Shown one piece after another: positions 53,866-64,000 of a stretch of 64,000 nt of DNA. This stretch comes from Lentzea sp. NBRC 102530 (lineage in GTDB: Bacteria; Actinomycetota; Actinomycetes; Mycobacteriales; Pseudonocardiaceae): the NCBI RefSeq assembly GCF_030269365.1, contig NZ_BSTF01000025.1, positions 1 to 64,000 on the forward strand. The letters are read 5' to 3'. The translations under genes and the position numbers were made by a program. How positions within the stretch are numbered: the stretch's first letter is position 1; the number at the start of each line of letters is the position of its first letter. A model generated the notes under the pieces. That model was given only the letters and a program-made list of their open reading frames with translations. It was not told where the DNA came from and did no database searches.

Positions 53866-53872
53866 GGTGGTT

Positions 53873-54163
53873 ATGGGCGATTCGAAGGACGAGAACGAGA
53901 GACTCCAGGAGGAGCTCATCGGCCTCGACCCCCACGACCCCGAGACGAAGGCGTTCGCCGACCATCTCGACAAGATGCGGCGGCAGCGGCCCGGGTACAC
54001 GGTCGAGGGGTATCTGGACGGCGTGCAGGACTTCGCGGACTCCGCCAACCGCACGACCGGGCACCAGCGTCTCGTCGCCGTGCTCGTGGTGGGGCTGATC
54101 CTGCTCGGGGTGCTCCTCACGATCTGGTTCGCCCTCGGCGACATCCTCGCCATCATCTTCTGA
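53873..54163 (+). CDS. Small single-span membrane protein
   Basis: 96 residues. An acidic N-terminal region (DENERLQEELIGLDPHDPETKAF) is followed by one transmembrane helix (LVAVLVVGLILLGVLLTIWF) close to the C-terminus, so it is probably tail-anchored with a cytoplasmic N-terminus. No family recognised. A GTG six bases earlier is possible. Next gene msrB is 96 bases on. Confidence 0.72.
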   Translation: MGDSKDENERLQEELIGLDPHDPETKAFADHLDKMRRQRPGYTVEGYLDGVQDFADSANRTTGHQRLVAVLVVGLILLGVLLTIWFALGDILAIIF

Positions 54164-54259
54164 CCCCGAACGAGAACGAGTCCTTAACGGGGCCTTACGG
54201 CGGGGCAGCTCGCCAGGAGCTCGGGAAGCCTCATGGGTGTGGCCGCGTTATAAAGGGAC

Positions 54260-54682
54260 ATGGAACCTGTTGTCGGCGCCACCCCCAAAGTCGTGCGTTC
54301 CGAAGAGGAATGGCGCGCCGTACTGAACCCCGCCGAGTTCGCGGTGCTGCGGCAGGCGGGCACCGAGCGTCCGTGGACCGGCGAGTACACCGAGACCAAG
54401 ACCGAGGGCGTCTACGAGTGTCGTGCTTGTGGGGCCGAACTCTTCCGCAGTGACACCAAGTTCGACTCGCACTGCGGGTGGCCCTCGTTCTTCTCGCCGC
54501 TGGCCGGGGAGTCGGTGATCCTGCGGGAGGACCGGACTCTCGGCATGAAGCGCGTGGAGGTGCTCTGCGCCACGTGTCACAGCCACCTCGGGCATGTTTT
54601 CGAGGGCGAGGGGTATCCCACCCCGACGGATCAGCGCTACTGCATCAACTCCGTCTCCTTGAAACTCGTTCCGTCCGAATAG
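54260..54682 (+). CDS. msrB: Peptide-methionine (R)-S-oxide reductase
   Basis: 140 residues. MsrB family: structural zinc sites in CRACG and CATCH, the segment FDSHCGWPSFFSPL, and the catalytic RYCINSVSLKL near the C-terminus. It reduces methionine-R-sulfoxide in proteins. A TATAAA sequence five bases before the ATG may be its -10 box. It ends with a hairpin (54697-54718), so it is a transcription unit separate from the TIGR04222 cluster. Confidence 0.95.
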   Translation: MEPVVGATPKVVRSEEEWRAVLNPAEFAVLRQAGTERPWTGEYTETKTEGVYECRACGAELFRSDTKFDSHCGWPSFFSPLAGESVILREDRTLGMKRVEVLCATCHSHLGHVFEGEGYPTPTDQRYCINSVSLKLVPSE

Positions 54683-54736: not shown

Positions 54737-54799
54737 ATGATCTTCTTCGGTACTGACGGTGAAGGCTCCGGCGGAGTCGATGGCGGCTCGTCGAGCTAG
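54737..54799 (+). CDS. 20-residue Gly/Ser/Asp-rich peptide
   Basis: ATG at 54737 with GGGAGG ending five bases upstream. MIFFGTDGEGSGG is followed by VDGG and a Ser triplet. It lies between two hairpins (54697-54718 and 54810-54837), so it has its own small transcription unit or is the distal cistron behind msrB. No Cys. Composition resembles the low-complexity tails of the TIGR04222 proteins that follow. No known family. Confidence 0.5.
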   Translation: MIFFGTDGEGSGGVDGGSSS

Positions 54800-54809
54800 T
54801 GGCGTGACC

Positions 54810-54837
54810 GTGGAACGTCGCCGTGACGACGTTCCAC
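54810..54837 (+). terminator. Terminator after the 20-residue ORF
   Basis: GTGGAACGTCG (54810-54820) and CGACGTTCCAC (54827-54837): perfect 11-base stem, 6-base loop, 11 bases past the small ORF stop. Confidence 0.75.
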
Positions 54838-54959: not shown

Positions 54960-55841
54960 ATGGCTTGGGGGTTGTCAGGACCGGAGTTCCTCCGGCTGTA
55001 CTGGATCGGGCTGGCGCTGGCGGTGCTGGTCGCGATCGTCGTTCGGGTACGCGTGCGGGCGGGTCGGAGCACCCAGCCCGTGCGCTCCCTCGACATGGAC
55101 GAGCTCGCGTTCCTCGCGGGCGGTCCGAGGCGCGTGGTCGAGACGTCCGTGGCGCGTCTGCTCACCGCGGGTGAGCTCAGGACTTCACGGCGTGGCACCG
55201 TTCAGGCCACGGCCGACACGAAGTCCGTCAACGCCGTGGACCGCGCCGTCATCACCGACGCGCAGCGCTACACCAACCGCACGGTCAACCTCATGATCCC
55301 CGCGGTCGCCCAGGACCGCGTGGTCACGTCGATCGGCGAGCGGCTGCGCGAGATGGGTCTGGTCGTCGACCCGGACGTGGCGAAAAGCGCGCTGCGCAAG
55401 GGAACCGTCGGTCTCTGGCTGCTGCTCGCGGTCGGGCTGGCCCGCTGGGTGAACGGCATCGTCATCGGCGCGAGCATCGGCTGGCTGACGCTGCAGGTCG
55501 TCCTCACGGGTCTGCTGATCCTGGTGCTGACGAGGCGCGGCAAGCACGTGCGCACCAGCAGGGGCACCGACGCGCTGGCGTCGGCGCGGGGCACGAGCGT
55601 GCGCACGACCGGCGGCGACGAAGGCCTGTACGCGGGGGCGGCGGGCATGGTGCTGTTCGGCGGTCTCGCCACCTATCCGGATCTGGCGGTGCGCAGTTCG
55701 CTGCTCGCCTCGTCGGGTTCCGGCTCGTACACGTCGACCACCGGCTACAGCGGGTGTTCGAGCAGTTCTTCCTCGTGTTCAAGCGGAAGCAGTTGTGGCG
55801 GTGGCGGCGGCTGCGGTGGTGGCTGCGGCGGCGGCAGCTGA
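54960..55841 (+). CDS. TIGR04222-type membrane protein with Cys-rich tail (paralogue A)
   Basis: 293 residues. One N-terminal membrane helix (residues about 13-31), a TIGR04222-like cytoplasmic domain (MDELAFLAGGPRRVVETSVARLL), two further helices (about 151-191) and a short hydrophobic segment (223-236). The tail (251-293) is almost only Ser/Gly with Cys at 266, 273, 279, 285 and 289. It is the most diverged of the four paralogues and the only one with the extra N-terminal helix; it lacks the VHQNGHGAT motif. It lies 85 bases before paralogue B. TIGR04222 proteins carry such low-complexity tails as a family trait; the function is unknown. Confidence 0.85.
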   Translation: MAWGLSGPEFLRLYWIGLALAVLVAIVVRVRVRAGRSTQPVRSLDMDELAFLAGGPRRVVETSVARLLTAGELRTSRRGTVQATADTKSVNAVDRAVITDAQRYTNRTVNLMIPAVAQDRVVTSIGERLREMGLVVDPDVAKSALRKGTVGLWLLLAVGLARWVNGIVIGASIGWLTLQVVLTGLLILVLTRRGKHVRTSRGTDALASARGTSVRTTGGDEGLYAGAAGMVLFGGLATYPDLAVRSSLLASSGSGSYTSTTGYSGCSSSSSSCSSGSSCGGGGGCGGGCGGGS

Positions 55842-55926
55842 TCGTTCGGTCCTTTTCAGGTAACACCGGGAACCCAGGGGTAGATCTCACGTCGAAGATG
55901 CACCGGCACCAGTGAGGGGAGTGCTG

Positions 55927-56724
55927 ATGTCAACGTCCTCGACACCGCACCGGACGACGTGGTCCGCGGAGGAGATCGGGTTCCTGGCAGGGGGACCGGG
56001 AAGGGCGGCGGAGGCCGTTCTCGCCCGGTTGCTGGACGGCGGTCTCGTGCGCATCTCCCGCGAGGGCCTCGTGACCGCCGTCCACCAGAACACCTACGGC
56101 GCCACGAGCGCGTTGGAGGCGTACGTCCTCGCCGGACTGCACGGCACCGCCCGCCCGATCCAGCAGGTCGTGCAGGTGGCGATGGCGAGCCACGAGATGG
56201 CCGCGCTGCACCAGAGCCTCGTCTCGCGGGGGATGGTGCACCAGCAGTGGGGACGGCCTCGCGGCGGCAAGTCGGCGTTGCGCGTGATCCTGTTCCTGCT
56301 GGCGTTCGTGTCTGTGTTCGTGGCGTTCGCGATCGACCCGCGGCTGTTCCTGGTGACGGCGCTGCTGGTGTTCGCCGCGATCCTGTTGCGCAAGAAGGGG
56401 AGGCTCACGCGCAACGGCAAGTCGGTGTGGCTGTACGCGTTGCGCAACCCGCGCAGCAGTGCGGACTCCGTGGCGTTGTTCGGGTTGCGGCGGGGCAAAC
56501 AGCGGACGAACACCGGTACGTCCACTTCGTACGTAGCGAGCAGCTGCAGTTCGTACGACTGGAACCACCACAGCTGCGGCGGCACTTCGAGTTGTTCGAG
56601 CAACAGCTGCAACAGTTCGAGCAGTTGCAACAGTTCCAGTAGCAGCTGCTCGAGCAGCAGTAGCAGCTGCAGCAGTTCGAGTTGCAGCAGCAGTAGCAGC
56701 AGCTGCAGCAGTTCCAGCAGTTAG
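55927..56724 (+). CDS. TIGR04222-type membrane protein with Ser/Cys tail (paralogue B)
   Basis: 265 residues. N-terminal TIGR04222 domain with WSAEEIGFLAGGPGRAAEAVLARL and LVRISREGLVTAVHQNTYGAT. Membrane helices at about 118-136 and 139-154 put both ends on the same, probably cytoplasmic, side. The tail (201-265) is Ser-rich with nine Cys (207, 217, 223, 228, 234, 241, 248, 253, 260), spaced five to ten residues apart. The DNA there is a degenerate triplet repeat. ATG 55927 with AGGGGAG upstream. Confidence 0.87.
   Translation: MSTSSTPHRTTWSAEEIGFLAGGPGRAAEAVLARLLDGGLVRISREGLVTAVHQNTYGATSALEAYVLAGLHGTARPIQQVVQVAMASHEMAALHQSLVSRGMVHQQWGRPRGGKSALRVILFLLAFVSVFVAFAIDPRLFLVTALLVFAAILLRKKGRLTRNGKSVWLYALRNPRSSADSVALFGLRRGKQRTNTGTSTSYVASSCSSYDWNHHSCGGTSSCSSNSCNSSSSCNSSSSSCSSSSSSCSSSSCSSSSSSCSSSSS
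56578..56724 (+). repeat. Low-complexity triplet repeat coding the Ser/Cys tail
   Basis: A run of AGC, AGT, TCG and TGC codons, in which AGCAGTAGCAGCTGC-like units recur. It encodes Cys every five to seven Ser/Asn residues. Triplet repeats of this sort can lengthen or shorten by slippage without frameshift. Confidence 0.8.
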
Positions 56725-56734
56725 GGGGAAACTG

Positions 56735-57535
56735 ATGGGAACACCCACCACGCAGGGGACGTGGTTGTCGGCCGAGGAGGCCGGCTACCTGAAGGCGGGA
56801 CCGCGGCGGGCGGCGGAAACCGTGCTGGCCCGGCTGATCGACAACGACCTGGTGCGGGTGTCGCGCGAGGGCCTCGTCTCCTCGGTTCACCAGAACGGCC
56901 ACGGCGCCACCACGTCCGTCGAGGCGCGGATGCTGAGCTCTGCGCGGACGCCGGTCCCGTTCGAGCAGATCCTGCCGTCGACGGCGACCAGCACCGAGAT
57001 GGTCCAGCTGCACCAGCACCTGCTGGGCCGCGGGCTGATGCGGCGGGGGCGGCACCGGCACGAGGGCTGGTGGTTCTCGCTGGCGATCGCGATCCTGCTG
57101 TTCGTGCTCGGGTTCTCCGCGCCGGGGTGCTTCTACGGCGTGCCGATCGCGCTGGGGTTCTTCTTCTGGCAGTACGGCCGCAGTCCCGTCACCACCGCAG
57201 GCAAGGCGGCGCTGCAGCAGGTGACCGCGCACGACCGGGTGCACGCGGTGGCGTTGCACGGGTTCGACGGCCGGATCGCCACCCAGAGCGTCCGGGCGCT
57301 GTTCGGCCTGCCGGAGCAGCTCGTGGTGACGCGGGAGCCGGTCAGGAGGCGCAGGTCCCGGGGCTCCTCTTCGGACGGTGCCGGGTACGCCGCCTACAGT
57401 GCGTGCGGCAGCGCCTCCGGGTGCGGCGGCTCCAGCTGTTCGGGCGGTTCCAGCTGTTCTGGCGGTTCCAGCTGCGGTGGCGGATCGAGCTGCGGTGGCG
57501 GCGGCGGTGGTTGTGGTGGCGGAGGAGGAAGCTGA
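56735..57535 (+). CDS. TIGR04222-type membrane protein with Gly/Ser/Cys tail (paralogue C)
   Basis: 266 residues with the same plan as B: LSAEEAGYLKAGPRRAAETVLARL, LVRVSREGLVSSVHQNGHGAT, two helices (about 112-146) and the segment HAVALHGFDGRIATQSVRALFGLPEQ before the tail. The tail (211-266) has Cys at 224, 230, 235, 241, 247, 253 and 260, mostly in SSC or GGC context. RBS AGGGGG. The stop overlaps the next start (TGATG), so C and D are coupled. Two further Cys-free segments separate it from B, 10 bases apart. Confidence 0.87.
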   Translation: MGTPTTQGTWLSAEEAGYLKAGPRRAAETVLARLIDNDLVRVSREGLVSSVHQNGHGATTSVEARMLSSARTPVPFEQILPSTATSTEMVQLHQHLLGRGLMRRGRHRHEGWWFSLAIAILLFVLGFSAPGCFYGVPIALGFFFWQYGRSPVTTAGKAALQQVTAHDRVHAVALHGFDGRIATQSVRALFGLPEQLVVTREPVRRRRSRGSSSDGAGYAAYSACGSASGCGGSSCSGGSSCSGGSSCGGGSSCGGGGGGCGGGGGS

Positions 57536-58332
57536 TGGCGGTTCCCACGGCGGCACGACGCACGGACGTGTCCGCGGAGGAGATCGGATTCCTCACGGCG
57601 GGGCCGGGCCGGGCGGCGGAGACCGCGCTGGCCAGGCTGATCGACGGCGGAGTCGTGCGGGTGTCGCGCGACGGCCTGGTGTCCGCGGTGCACCAGAACG
57701 GCCACGGCGCCACGACCGACGTCGAGACGCACATCCACAACCAGGTGCGCAGCAAGTCGGTGCGAATCGGTCAGGTGGTGCAGCGCGCCGCGAACAGCGT
57801 GAAGATGGACGCGCTGCAACGGGATCTGCGCTCGCGCCGGTTGACGCGCTCTCCCCGGCCACGGCTCGGGGCGTGGTGGGTCTTCCTGGTGATCGGCCTC
57901 TTCCTGGCCCTCGCCGCGATCACGGAGCCGTGGCTGCTCATCGGCACGGCCGGGTTCCTCGGGACCGCCTGGTACTCGTTCGGCGCGAAGCCCCTGACGA
58001 GAGCGGGCAGGGCGGCGCTCGCCGGGGTGACCGCGAGCGACCGGGTCCTCGCGGTGGCGCTGGAAGGCTTCCGCGGCCGGGTCGGCAACCAGGCGGTCGG
58101 TGATCTCTTCGGGCTGTCCCAGGCCGTGGTGAAGATGATCCCGCGCAAGAAGAAGGCGCGGAGGATGGCCCGTGGCGGCGGGGCGTCGGGCTCGGCGGCG
58201 GCGTGCGGCAGTTGCGGCAGCGGGTGTGGCAGCAGCAGCTGTTCGTCGAGCAGCAGCAGCTGCGGCAGTTCGAGTGGCAGCAGTTGCTCTTCCGGTGGCA
58301 GCAGCTGCGGTGGTGGCGGAGGGGGCGACTGA
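57535..58332 (+). CDS. TIGR04222-type membrane protein with Ser/Gly/Cys tail (paralogue D)
   Basis: 265 residues. VSAEEIGFLTAGPGRAAETALARL, VVRVSRDGLVSAVHQNGHGAT, two helices (about 112-148), then VLAVALEGFRGRVGNQAVGDLFGL and a basic stretch (IPRKKKARRMARG). The tail (217-265) has Cys at 224, 227, 231, 236, 243, 251 and 258 and ends in polyglycine-Asp. Translationally coupled on both sides: TGATG overlaps with C and with the MNIO gene. GGAGGAGG precedes the start. Confidence 0.87.
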   Translation: MAVPTAARRTDVSAEEIGFLTAGPGRAAETALARLIDGGVVRVSRDGLVSAVHQNGHGATTDVETHIHNQVRSKSVRIGQVVQRAANSVKMDALQRDLRSRRLTRSPRPRLGAWWVFLVIGLFLALAAITEPWLLIGTAGFLGTAWYSFGAKPLTRAGRAALAGVTASDRVLAVALEGFRGRVGNQAVGDLFGLSQAVVKMIPRKKKARRMARGGGASGSAAACGSCGSGCGSSSCSSSSSSCGSSSGSSCSSGGSSCGGGGGGD

Positions 58333-59150
58333 TGGCGGGCATCAAGGACCTGGGCGTCGGCATCGGCTGGCGGTCGGAGATCGACCTGACGGTGGAACGG
58401 CTGCCCGGCGTGGACTTCGTCGAGGTCGTCGCCGAGAACCTCCACGTCGGGCACCTGCCGGAGTCGGTGACGCTGCTGCTGGAACGCGGCGTCCCGGTGC
58501 TCCCCCACGCCGTGTCGCTGTCGCTGGGCGGCGCCGACCCCGTGGACCTGCACCGGGTCGAGCACCTGGGCGCGGTCGCGGAGGCCGTCGGCGCGCCGAT
58601 GGTCAGCGACCACGTCTGCTTCGTGCGGGCGGGCGGCCTCGACTCCGGCCACCTGATGCCGGTGCCGCGCACCAGGGACTCGCTGGACGTGCTCGTCGCG
58701 AACGTCAAGCTCGCGCAGGCGAACCTGCCGGTGCCGCTCGCGCTGGAGAACGTCGCCGCGCTGCTGGAGTGGCCGGACGGCGAGCTGTCCGAGGGCCAGT
58801 TCCTCGCCGAACTCGTCGAGCGCACGGACTGCTGGCTGCTCGTGGACGTCGCGAACCTCTACGCGAACGCCCGCAACATCGGCACCGACCCGGAACGCTT
58901 CCTGGACGAGATCCCGCTCGAACGCCTCGCCTACGTGCACGTGGCCGGCGGCGAGCAGCACGGCGACATCTACCACGACACGCACGCGCACGCGGTTCTT
59001 CCGGAAGTTCTCGAAGTGCTCGACGAACTGTGCTCGCGCGTCGCACCGCCGGGTGTTCTCCTGGAACGCGACGACAACTACCCGTCCGACACCGAAATCG
59101 CGAGCGAACTGGCCGCGATCCGCGCGGTGGTGGACAAACATCGTGCCTGA
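58332..59150 (+). CDS. DUF692 / MNIO-family iron-dependent oxidase
   Basis: 272 residues, TIM-barrel. The metal-site residues of the multinuclear non-haem iron oxidative enzymes (MbnB, TglH) appear in order: E35/N36, H59 in PHAVSLSLG, D93/H94 in SDHVCF, E139/N140 in LENVAALL, D172/N175 in VDVANLYANARN, H203 in YVHVAGG, D216 and H218 in YHDTHAH, E245/D247 in LERDDN. Known members oxidise cysteines of ribosomal peptides, with 2-3 Fe ions. It overlaps paralogue D (TGATG) and the downstream ORF by 8 bases. Best inference: it modifies the Cys-rich tails encoded directly upstream. Confidence 0.9.
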   Translation: MAGIKDLGVGIGWRSEIDLTVERLPGVDFVEVVAENLHVGHLPESVTLLLERGVPVLPHAVSLSLGGADPVDLHRVEHLGAVAEAVGAPMVSDHVCFVRAGGLDSGHLMPVPRTRDSLDVLVANVKLAQANLPVPLALENVAALLEWPDGELSEGQFLAELVERTDCWLLVDVANLYANARNIGTDPERFLDEIPLERLAYVHVAGGEQHGDIYHDTHAHAVLPEVLEVLDELCSRVAPPGVLLERDDNYPSDTEIASELAAIRAVVDKHRA

Positions 59151-59514
59151 AAACGGGAACGAGAATAGCCTTTCGTCAGCACGCGAAAGGCTTGCGAATC
59201 AACAGGCCGAGCTGCTAAATGCATTGCTCGCGAACGGCCCCGCACCCGCGGGATTCGACGAACAACGCCTGAACGTCGAACGCCGCGCACTGCTGTCGAA
59301 ACGCCGCGGCATCGTCCGCATGCTCGGCCCGGCCGTCGCCGACGAGCTGGGCGACCGGTTCCGGCGGCTCTTCGACGCCTATGCCGTCGAACACCCACGT
59401 CGTGCGGGCTCACGCGCGCGCGAGGATGCCGCATCTTTTGCGGATTGGTGCCGCGAACGCGGCGAACTGTCAGTCAATCGCAAGGCACGCTGGAAGTTCT
59501 GGCAGTCGAACTGA
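59143..59514 (+). CDS. Putative MNIO partner protein
   Basis: 123 residues: starts (GTG) VPENGNENSLSSARERLANQQ, then LLNALLANGPAPAGFDEQRLNVERRALLSKRRGIVRMLGPAV, in part, then WCRERGELSVNRKARWKFWQSN. Mainly helical, basic, soluble. The GTG at 59143 lies inside the MNIO gene. MNIO enzymes usually need a small partner encoded next to them (MbnC, TglI) that binds the precursor; size, position and overlap fit such a role. The start is chosen because it gives the whole protein without the MNIO frame; no strong RBS. Confidence 0.75.
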   Translation: MPENGNENSLSSARERLANQQAELLNALLANGPAPAGFDEQRLNVERRALLSKRRGIVRMLGPAVADELGDRFRRLFDAYAVEHPRRAGSRAREDAASFADWCRERGELSVNRKARWKFWQSN

Positions 59515-62828: not shown

Positions 62829-63521
62829 TCACGGCAGGTTGAGGACGAGCTCGGCCGCCGGGACGCGGGTGCCCGTGTAGAAGGGGATCTCCTCACGCAC
62901 GTGCAGCCGCGCCTCGGTGCCGCGCAGGTGCCGCATGAGGTCGACGATGCGGTGCAGTTCGTCGGCTTCGAACGCGAGCAGCCACTCGTAGTCGCCCAGC
63001 GCGAACGACGCGACGGTGTTCGCGCGCACGTCCGGGAAGTCGCGGGCCTCCTTGCCGTGGTCCGCCAGCATCTTGCGACGCTCGCCCTCCTCCAGCAGGT
63101 ACCACTCGTAGGACCGCACGAACGGGTAGACGCAGACGTACTTGCGCGCCTCCTCGCCCGCGAGGAACGCGGGGATGTGGCTGCGGTTGAACTCCGCGGG
63201 GCGGTGCAGGGCGACCTGCGACCAGACCGGCGTCGAGACCTTGCCGAGCGGCGTGCGGCGGAAGCCCGTGTAGGCCGCCTGCACCTGCTCGATCTCCTCG
63301 GCGTGCCACCAGATCATGAAGTCCGCGTCGGCGCGCAGACCGGCCACGTCGTAGACGCCGCGCACGACGACGCCCTTGCCCTCCAACGCGTCCAGGTAGT
63401 CCTGGGTCTCGCTGGCCGCCGCCGAACGGTCGTCCGGCAGCTTGCCGGGTTCGACCCGGAACACCGACCACATCGTGTAGCGGATGGTGTCGTTGAGCTC
63501 GTTGTAGTTCAGGCGCGCCAT
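62829..63521 (-). CDS. hemQ: Coproheme decarboxylase (HemQ/ChdC)
   Basis: 230 residues of the chlorite-dismutase fold. [46 protein letters not shown], the catalytic-region [16 protein letters not shown] (with the Tyr that forms the radical), and the haem-binding His region [24 protein letters not shown]. It converts coproheme to haem b in the coproporphyrin-dependent pathway of Gram-positives. Just downstream of hemY. The ATG at 63521 has CAAGAT six bases upstream. Confidence 0.93.
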
Positions 63522-63544
63522 AGGTCCATCTTGGCACGCGCCCC

Positions 63545-64000
63545 TCAACGCCGGACGCGGCCCAGCAGGTGTGCTGCGACACGGGCGGCGGCCGCGTCGG
63601 CGGTGGCGATGCAGGCGGGCACCCCCACGCCGTGCAGGGTCGCGCCCGCGACGGCGAGGCCCGGCACGTCCGCGATGCCGCGTTCGATGGTGTCCACGAG
63701 GTCGACGTGGCCGACGCCGTACTGCGGCAGCCCGCCGCCCCAGCGCTGCACCACGGAGTCGATCGGCGTGGCGGTGATGCCGGTCAGCTCGCGCAGGTCG
63801 TTGCGCACGGCCTTGACGAGGTCGGCGTCGCTGCGCTGCAACAGCGCCGTCTCGCCGTGCCGGCCGACCGAGCCGCGCAGGATCACCGGTTCGCCGTAGT
63901 GCGCCCACTTGCGGGTGGAGAACGTGAACGCCTTGGCGGTGAACGGGGTGATGCGGTCGGAGTACCGCTCCCCCTCCGCGATCAGCGTGCCGGAGCGCTG
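63545..64000 (-). CDS. hemY: Protoporphyrinogen/coproporphyrinogen oxidase, 3' part
   Basis: C-terminal 151 residues of a HemY/CgoX-type FAD oxidase; the gene runs off the right edge at 64000. Reading from the edge, [24 protein letters not shown] (in part) is followed by [33 protein letters not shown] and the C-terminal FAD-binding [26 protein letters not shown]. It makes coproporphyrin III from coproporphyrinogen III (or protoporphyrin IX), two steps before the hemQ product. 23 bases separate it from hemQ on the same strand. Confidence 0.9.

Follow-up and report, generated by a model that had tools for sequence, protein, structure and literature searches.

A conserved actinobacterial cassette of Cys-tailed TIGR04222 membrane proteins, an MNIO enzyme and a short DUF2063-like partner, seen in Lentzea sp. 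NBRC 102530

Introduction

Methanobactin is a small copper peptide, and MbnB is the MNIO enzyme (family PF05114, DUF692) of that system. This article concerns a cassette built around such an enzyme in a 64,000-nucleotide stretch of DNA, hereafter the window, i.e., positions 1 to 64,000 of the forward strand of contig NZ_BSTF01000025.1 from Lentzea sp. NBRC 102530 (assembly GCF_030269365.1). Here, four paralogous TIGR04222 membrane proteins, each ending in a Cys-containing tail, are encoded before an MNIO and a short partner protein. Genome comparison shows this unit of TIGR04222 Cys-tail proteins, MNIO and partner to be conserved over many actinobacterial genera, and the tails are the likely substrates of the enzyme.

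The closest described systems are those of Antoine et al. 2025 (Microb Genom, PMC12452194), who proposed subsets of TIGR04222 proteins as MNIO substrates. In the accessible part of that paper, to which all our statements about it refer, more than 1,000 Cys proteins that lack a signal peptide and are encoded ahead of an MNIO were collected; 40% of them are TIGR04222 proteins, whose tails are placed in the periplasm on the basis of the predicted transmembrane (TM) topology of selected models. The same work defines the PME-type 2 partners, exemplified by a protein of 115 residues from Saccharothrix sp. NRRL B-16314, and puts the share of TIGR04222 clusters with such a gene at 10% or more, with many TIGR04222-MNIO clusters seemingly lacking a partner. 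In addition, some MNIOs are described as modifying residues other than Cys, and the precursors of the bufferins are described as Sec-exported and served by PME-type 1 partners; for the bufferins, an absorbance near 305 nm is given.

A sequence-only reading of the window had presented the system as undescribed, which the paper of Antoine et al. rules out, as the pairing of Cys-tailed TIGR04222 proteins with an MNIO already appears there (PMC12452194). Within the accessible portion of the open-licence literature, no characterised product of a TIGR04222-MNIO cluster was found. Relative to the accessible text of PMC12452194, the present analysis adds that the partner looks obligatory, that TIGR04222 is tied to this MNIO class, that cytosolic tails are favoured, and that the cassette occupies a site between msrB and hemQ-hemY.

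Layout of the cassette

Six open frames on the + strand span 54960-59514. As the sequence-only reading had it, they comprise four TIGR04222 paralogs, an MNIO and a partner, with matches above or near the cut-offs of their families. These frames, and a conserved micro-ORF (a very short open reading frame) upstream of them, are as follows.

54737-54799, + strand: conserved micro-ORF, 20 aa, with a GGGAGG site, between msrB and gene A
54960-55841, + strand: gene A, 293 aa; TIGR04222 protein with N-terminal TM segment, domain, TM hairpin and 5-Cys tail (first Cys to end 55755-55838)
55927-56724, + strand: gene B, 265 aa; TIGR04222 protein without N-terminal TM segment, with hairpin and 9-Cys tail (56545-56721)
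56735-57535, + strand: gene C, 266 aa; TIGR04222 protein without N-terminal TM segment, with hairpin and 7-Cys tail (57404-57532)
57535-58332, + strand: gene D, 265 aa; TIGR04222 protein without N-terminal TM segment, with hairpin and 7-Cys tail (58204-58329); its start overlaps the stop of C
58332-59150, + strand: MNIO (PF05114), 272 aa
59143-59514, + strand: partner, DUF2063-like (PME-type 2), 123 aa, GTG start, overlapping the MNIO gene, predicted all-helical

Genes C, D, MNIO and partner were said to overlap or touch, and they do so by one base (TGATG) at C/D and at D/MNIO and by 8 bases at MNIO/partner; A and B are separated by 85 bases, and B and C by 10. A scan for promoters and terminators gave no signal above expectation. 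As a separate observation, the inverted repeat TGGAACGTCG-CCGTGA-CGACGTTCCA lies at 54811-54836, upstream of A; this repeat was not seen in 10 aligned Lentzea loci.

Co-occurrence across genomes

The sequence-only reading had proposed co-occurrence of the three families in actinobacteria as a check, and the linkage turned out to be strong. The first sample consisted of 80 regions carrying this MNIO class (the window, loci L041-L100 without L088, and L151-L170; L and G numbers are our handles for loci and genomes). TIGR04222 is present in 79 of them, the miss, L151, being at a contig end, and the partner in all 80; by match coordinates, the distance to the MNIO is at most 600 bases for the former in 78 regions and at most 300 bases for the latter in 80. 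Among seven regions with other MNIO classes (L088, L101-L106), neither family was found (0/7 each). Loci L171-L250 (n = 80) gave a similar count: 76 hold TIGR04222 and 79 the partner, within the same distances in 74 and 78, respectively. The misses are L187, L224 and L250, all at contig ends, and L248, which has no TIGR04222 in its stretch.

At the level of the phylum, the MNIO alignment A1 matched 20 of 396 genomes, 17 of them over 300 bits. The partner, sought at E of at most 0.001 among 12 scored candidates in each genome, was found in the same 17 and in none of the 379 others. TIGR04222 passes its cut-off in 16 of the 396 genomes, namely 15 of the 17 with MNIO and partner and one, G324, outside them. 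Moreover, MNIO and partner share the length of one open frame in 10 of the 17 genomes, all of one genus, as expected of a fusion: G319 (locus L270), G489 (L271), G403, G424, G457, G478, G542, G630, G648 and G665. In the two of these ten that were inspected, L270 and L271, the matches to both families fall within one open reading frame; no fusion was seen in L171-L250 or L041-L170. Because MNIO class and partner mark the same 17 genomes and are apparently fused in ten of them, the partner looks obligatory.

The pairing of TIGR04222 with MNIO is widespread in the bacterial family, being present in 177 of the 297 genomes sampled when any PF05114 protein is counted; 27 genomes have TIGR04222 only, three have PF05114 only, and 90 have neither (Fisher p 3e-47, relatedness ignored). 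Among the 27 with TIGR04222 only, 12 hold a match over the cut-off and 15 weak matches only. The three families are also linked in Nonomuraea and Streptosporangium, and in Streptomyces and Kitasatospora, where TIGR04222 comes after the partner.

The MNIO enzyme and its partner

The enzyme matches PF05114 with 279.9 bits against a gathering threshold of 25 (E = 2.4e-83), and the 24 other aligned sequences are 68-98% identical to it, the one from Lentzea pudingi reaching 98%, which places the window within or close to the genus Lentzea. The complete set of metal-site residues that had been claimed for it is borne out by conservation: H59, H94, E139, D172, N175, H203, D216, H218 and E245 are invariant in 25/25 aligned MNIOs, the window's included, and all of these except N175 are presumably metal ligands. 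The same eight are aligned with 3bww. The best NCBIfam match is BufB, the bufferin maturase (NF050167), at 198.3 bits, below the curated cut-off of 310; the MbnB model gives only 54 bits against a cut-off of 325.

Judged by its sequence, the partner is DUF2063-like and too short for an RRE-type half (RRE, recognition element of ribosomally synthesised and post-translationally modified peptides, RiPPs). Its match to PF09836 (DUF2063) is nearly full-length and sub-threshold, with 19.9 of 27.2 bits (E 9e-4), and 12 of 63 relatives match DUF2063 at E of at most 0.01. In profile comparison by hhalign, four genuine DUF2063 partners of the same family gave 76% (E 2.3e-5); the control, MsrB, gave 0.1%, and the gene that follows the divergent MNIO of L088 gave 24%. 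The AlphaFold2 model of the partner is all helical, with a predicted local distance difference test score (pLDDT) of 86; its best Foldseek match among 350,542 chains is MbnC of 7dz9, at a non-significant E of 1.1, and direct sequence searches of the PDB returned nothing significant. The protein thus has the features of PME-type 2, i.e., it is DUF2063-like, encoded after the MNIO, under the Pfam cut-off and short. PME-type 1 calls for DUF2063 over the cut-off plus an RRE-type domain in ∼260 aa, and at 123 aa and a sub-threshold score the partner falls outside it. The strain of the published 115-residue example is our locus L189, which carries the cassette; the tie to the published protein is by strain, not by sequence.

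The TIGR04222 proteins and their tails

A, B, C and D score 127.8, 70.3, 65.6 and 64.8 bits against TIGR04222 and all pass its curated cut-off of 43 bits; likewise, 86/86 rows of alignment A3 match the family at E of at most 0.01. A recount confirms the 28 tail Cys first reported, five to nine per protein (5+9+7+7), the sole Cys outside the tails being one in C. The tails measure 28, 59, 43 and 42 residues from the first tail Cys, and the earlier figure of 43-65 residues depends on the chosen start of the tail. Regular spacing had also been claimed, and holds in a weaker form, as the intervals run from 3 to 10 residues and are mostly 5-7, i.e., semi-regular rather than strictly periodic.

Tails were also compared in 278 non-identical TIGR04222 proteins adjoining MNIO and partner. 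At least three tail Cys are found in 218 of them, two in 16, one in three and none in 41, and given these counts a chance origin of the tails is unlikely. Spacing peaks at 6, and the residue before a tail Cys is Ser 712 times and Gly 463 times, while the one after it is Gly 851 times and Ser 342 times. Tail Cys also follow the presence of the enzyme away from the cassette: among off-cassette TIGR04222 genes, at least three tail Cys occur in 9 of 10 with an MNIO elsewhere in the genome vs 3 of 13 with no MNIO found (p 0.003, a value inflated by kinship, with the 10 picked by hand, and with L119, a cluster split between contigs, and sub-60-bit matches left out). The three exceptions all come from fragmented assemblies, G096 (480 contigs) and G104 (370 contigs).

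Some further members of the family deserve mention in their own right. The genome of the window holds a fifth TIGR04222 gene (G000:C4:207921-208562, L120) with a Cys tail, one TAA within the match, and no MNIO in the surrounding 14 kb. Sub-cut-off matches (L133-L147, L149, L150) lie in many cases in frames of ∼550 aa and cover profile positions 50-209. Finally, DUF2207_C is matched by 4/86 TIGR04222 proteins, so the two families may be related.

Membrane topology and domain fold

When both best segments were required to be hydrophobic, two clear hairpin helices were found in 78 of 86 aligned TIGR04222 proteins, one in 7 and none in 1. In the 78, the two 12-residue flanks of the hairpin hold on average 3.47 and 3.49 lysines and arginines, vs 0.56 in a loop averaging 6.3 residues. 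The flanks together are richer than the loop in 78/78; they are also longer, yet the density still differs about threefold. The N-terminal TM segment of 105 A-type proteins has 0.31 such charges per residue after it vs 0.03 before it (the value after it is the higher one in 99 proteins, and the two are equal in 4). By the positive-inside rule, which relates such charges to helix orientation, this pattern would place the TIGR04222 domain in the cytosol and, after two more crossings, the tail as well. On the biological scale, whose values are used for TM segments, 19-mers below zero occur within the hairpin in 57/85 proteins and after it in 0/86.

Certain paralogs have no hairpin at all. One of them, in Lentzea pudingi (L171:5590-6225, the same as L054:7945-8595), lies inside the operon and keeps four tail Cys, and L086 has a second hairpin-less TIGR04222 gene, with one Cys. 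Read together, the charges and the hairpin-less paralog favour the cytoplasmic side that the sequence-only reading had assigned to the tails, though relatives are not uniform; the tails of the window probably face the cytosol, and in some genera an external tail is possible.

Regarding the fold, AlphaFold2 modelled D at a mean pLDDT of 81, with confident structure on both sides of the hairpin and disorder in the tail, and a search of the PDB gave D no significant match. The core with the hairpin removed gave six PDB matches, none significant, of which five are MarR regulators (three or more of these are apparently variants of one protein), and in one of these the MarR wing is aligned where the hairpin had been removed. 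From the order of helices and strands, the near-invariant T155 and G158 after the hairpin, and these weak matches, the domain might be a winged helix with a TM hairpin inserted in its wing. An RRE within the domain was considered and rejected, as profile A6 against the RRE-type half of the DUF2063 partners (A7, four sequences) gave 0.1%, i.e., no likeness. The leader role that the sequence-only reading gave to the domain plus two helices is a conjecture.

Genomic site and neighbours

On one side, the cassette is bordered by a small TM gene and msrB, and on the other by convergent hemQ-like and hemY-like genes, often with an S8 peptidase gene in between. Recurrent neighbours were annotated for six frames, and those placed in the window are the following.

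53867-54682: small TM gene and msrB
62829-63908, - strand: frame of a hemQ-like protein, by likeness to L171

Within L171-L250, whose flanks end at 7 kb, msrB is present in 54 of the 80 loci, the small TM gene in 49, S8 in 31, a hemQ-like gene (PF06778 via the L171 copy) in 49 and a hemY-like gene (PF01593) in 42. The small TM gene and msrB stand together in 17/17 genomes tested, 15 of which lack the cassette; in 13 of these 15, the distance between hemQ and msrB is at most 1.5 kb. Since msrB, hemQ and the small TM gene keep together without the cassette, they are landmarks of a site that may be occupied or empty and say little on function; the idea that MsrB and hemQ-hemY are functional members finds no support in these counts (15/15 and 13/15). 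The S8 peptidase was rejected as a tail-cleaving maturase, as it is found in only 31/80 loci.

Proposed mechanism and alternatives

The best explanation as a whole is that the cassette acts in place on tails tethered to the membrane, modifying their Cys, a proposal built on sequence comparison that we hold at slightly less than even confidence. Its central element is firmer: that the tails are the MNIO substrates, as the sequence-only reading had suggested, is likely, given the strong co-occurrence of the three families. Tethering to the inner membrane face would come from the TIGR04222 domain, which may be winged-helix-like, and from the hairpin inserted in it; there, a cytosolic complex of MNIO and partner would act on the C-terminal tails, which are flexible. 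It would oxidise those Cys that follow a Ser or Gly, most likely to a thiooxazole or related heterocycle as in the bufferins; this chemistry, like the thioamide-like one also suggested by the sequence-only reading, is drawn by analogy and is offered tentatively. The product would stay attached as a membrane-bound, multi-dentate ligand for soft metals, copper first, or for redox purposes, with several paralogs supplying more ligand sites, and metal binding by the modified tails is conceivable, if short of probable. A further idea, which we regard as doubtful, is a RiPP-like product neither excised nor exported, with an obligatory partner and a winged-helix-like domain supplying the recognition that the short partner lacks.

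Several observations weigh against this explanation. A post-hairpin Kyte-Doolittle stretch of at least 1.6 occurs in 12/86 relatives (0/36 Lentzea rows), and the tails of those could lie outside, as published. A cruder segmentation gave flanks richer than loop in only 122/147 proteins, and counted three segments beyond the motif in 57/204. The winged-helix idea is built on non-significant matches, and the msrB, hemQ and hemY neighbours lend no functional support. MNIO and partner occur without TIGR04222 in G319 and G489 (all candidates scored) and in Antrihabitans L248, and G031 has an MNIO without TIGR04222, so that the tails are not the sole possible substrate; no substitute with a Ser/Gly/Cys tail was seen among the nearby coding-strand frames in G319 and G489. 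Conversely, Cys tails are present in two genomes with no MNIO found, G096 and G104.

The alternative closest to the proposal is the published one, in which the same TIGR04222 proteins are modified by the MNIO and the tails are periplasmic, like bufferins. It is stated from the predicted TM topology of selected models (PMC12452194, accessible part), and the extra hydrophobic stretch in 12/86 relatives agrees with it. We nevertheless find it unlikely, since the charges around the hairpin and the N-terminal TM segment point the other way, 36/36 Lentzea rows lack the extra stretch, no post-hairpin segment falls below zero on the biological scale (0/86), and a hairpin-less paralog sits inside the operon.

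Another explanation is that the MNIO acts on something else, either a small peptide or the TIGR04222 domain, and that the Cys tails are unmodified and bind metals or thiols. The genomes with MNIO and partner alone (G319, G489, L248) speak for this, as does the modification of non-Cys residues by some MNIOs in the accessible part of PMC12452194. A candidate peptide is the product of the micro-ORF just upstream of A, MIFFGTDGEGSGGVDGGSSS, whose conserved core, GTDGEGSxGVDGxSSS, is found in 21 of the 24 sequences in which it was sought (the window and L171-L193). Each of the 16 codon columns shows variation, which in 14 is synonymous only, a strong coding signature; the variant in L049 has a Cys. 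By the strict pattern, however, the micro-ORF is found only in loci of Lentzea, Saccharothrix and Umezawaea, whereas the cassette ranges wider, and the tail Cys track the presence of MNIO; a different substrate thus seems improbable to us.

Finally, it is very unlikely that low-complexity drift produced the tail Cys incidentally (the codons AGC for Ser, GGC for Gly and TGC for Cys being one step apart) and that the linkage is an old synteny without shared function, for although the landmark is stable (small TM gene and msrB in 17/17 genomes, hemQ near msrB in 13/15 cassette-less ones), the Cys counts of the 278 proteins are bimodal, the families are linked as far as Nonomuraea, Streptosporangium and (TIGR04222 after the partner) Streptomyces and Kitasatospora, MNIO and partner are apparently fused in places, and the MNIO is conserved at 68-98% identity in the 24 other aligned sequences.

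For experiments on the proposed modification in place, handy test objects are offered by the compact cassette of Lentzea, by the paralog lacking the hairpin and by those MNIO-partner enzymes of relatives that seem to be fused.

Comparison with known systems

With the clusters of Antoine et al. (PMC12452194, accessible part), the Lentzea cassette shares the three families, the Ser/Gly/Cys C-terminal tails, the short DUF2063-like partner and the mostly actinomycetotal distribution. It differs in that the partner accompanies this MNIO class in 17/17 genomes and 80/80 regions, in that the tails are read as cytosolic, and in the four paralogs of the window, three of them without an N-terminal TM segment.

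Methanobactin MbnB-MbnC is related through the sequence of the MNIO, and the partner model finds MbnC as its best, non-significant PDB match (E 1.1); the distance is seen in the 54 bits of the MNIO to the MbnB model against a cut-off of 325. The bufferins (BufA-BufB-BufC) likewise employ an MNIO and a DUF2063-type partner acting on Cys, and BufB is the best NCBIfam match here. However, their precursors leave the cell interior through Sec and their partners are of PME-type 1 (PMC12452194, accessible part), and the MNIO of the window scores 198 against the BufB cut-off of 310. If the tails are indeed cytosolic, then chemistry, substrate access and biology would all differ from those of the bufferins, and the product would be a fixed intracellular array of ligands at the membrane rather than an exported copper binder.

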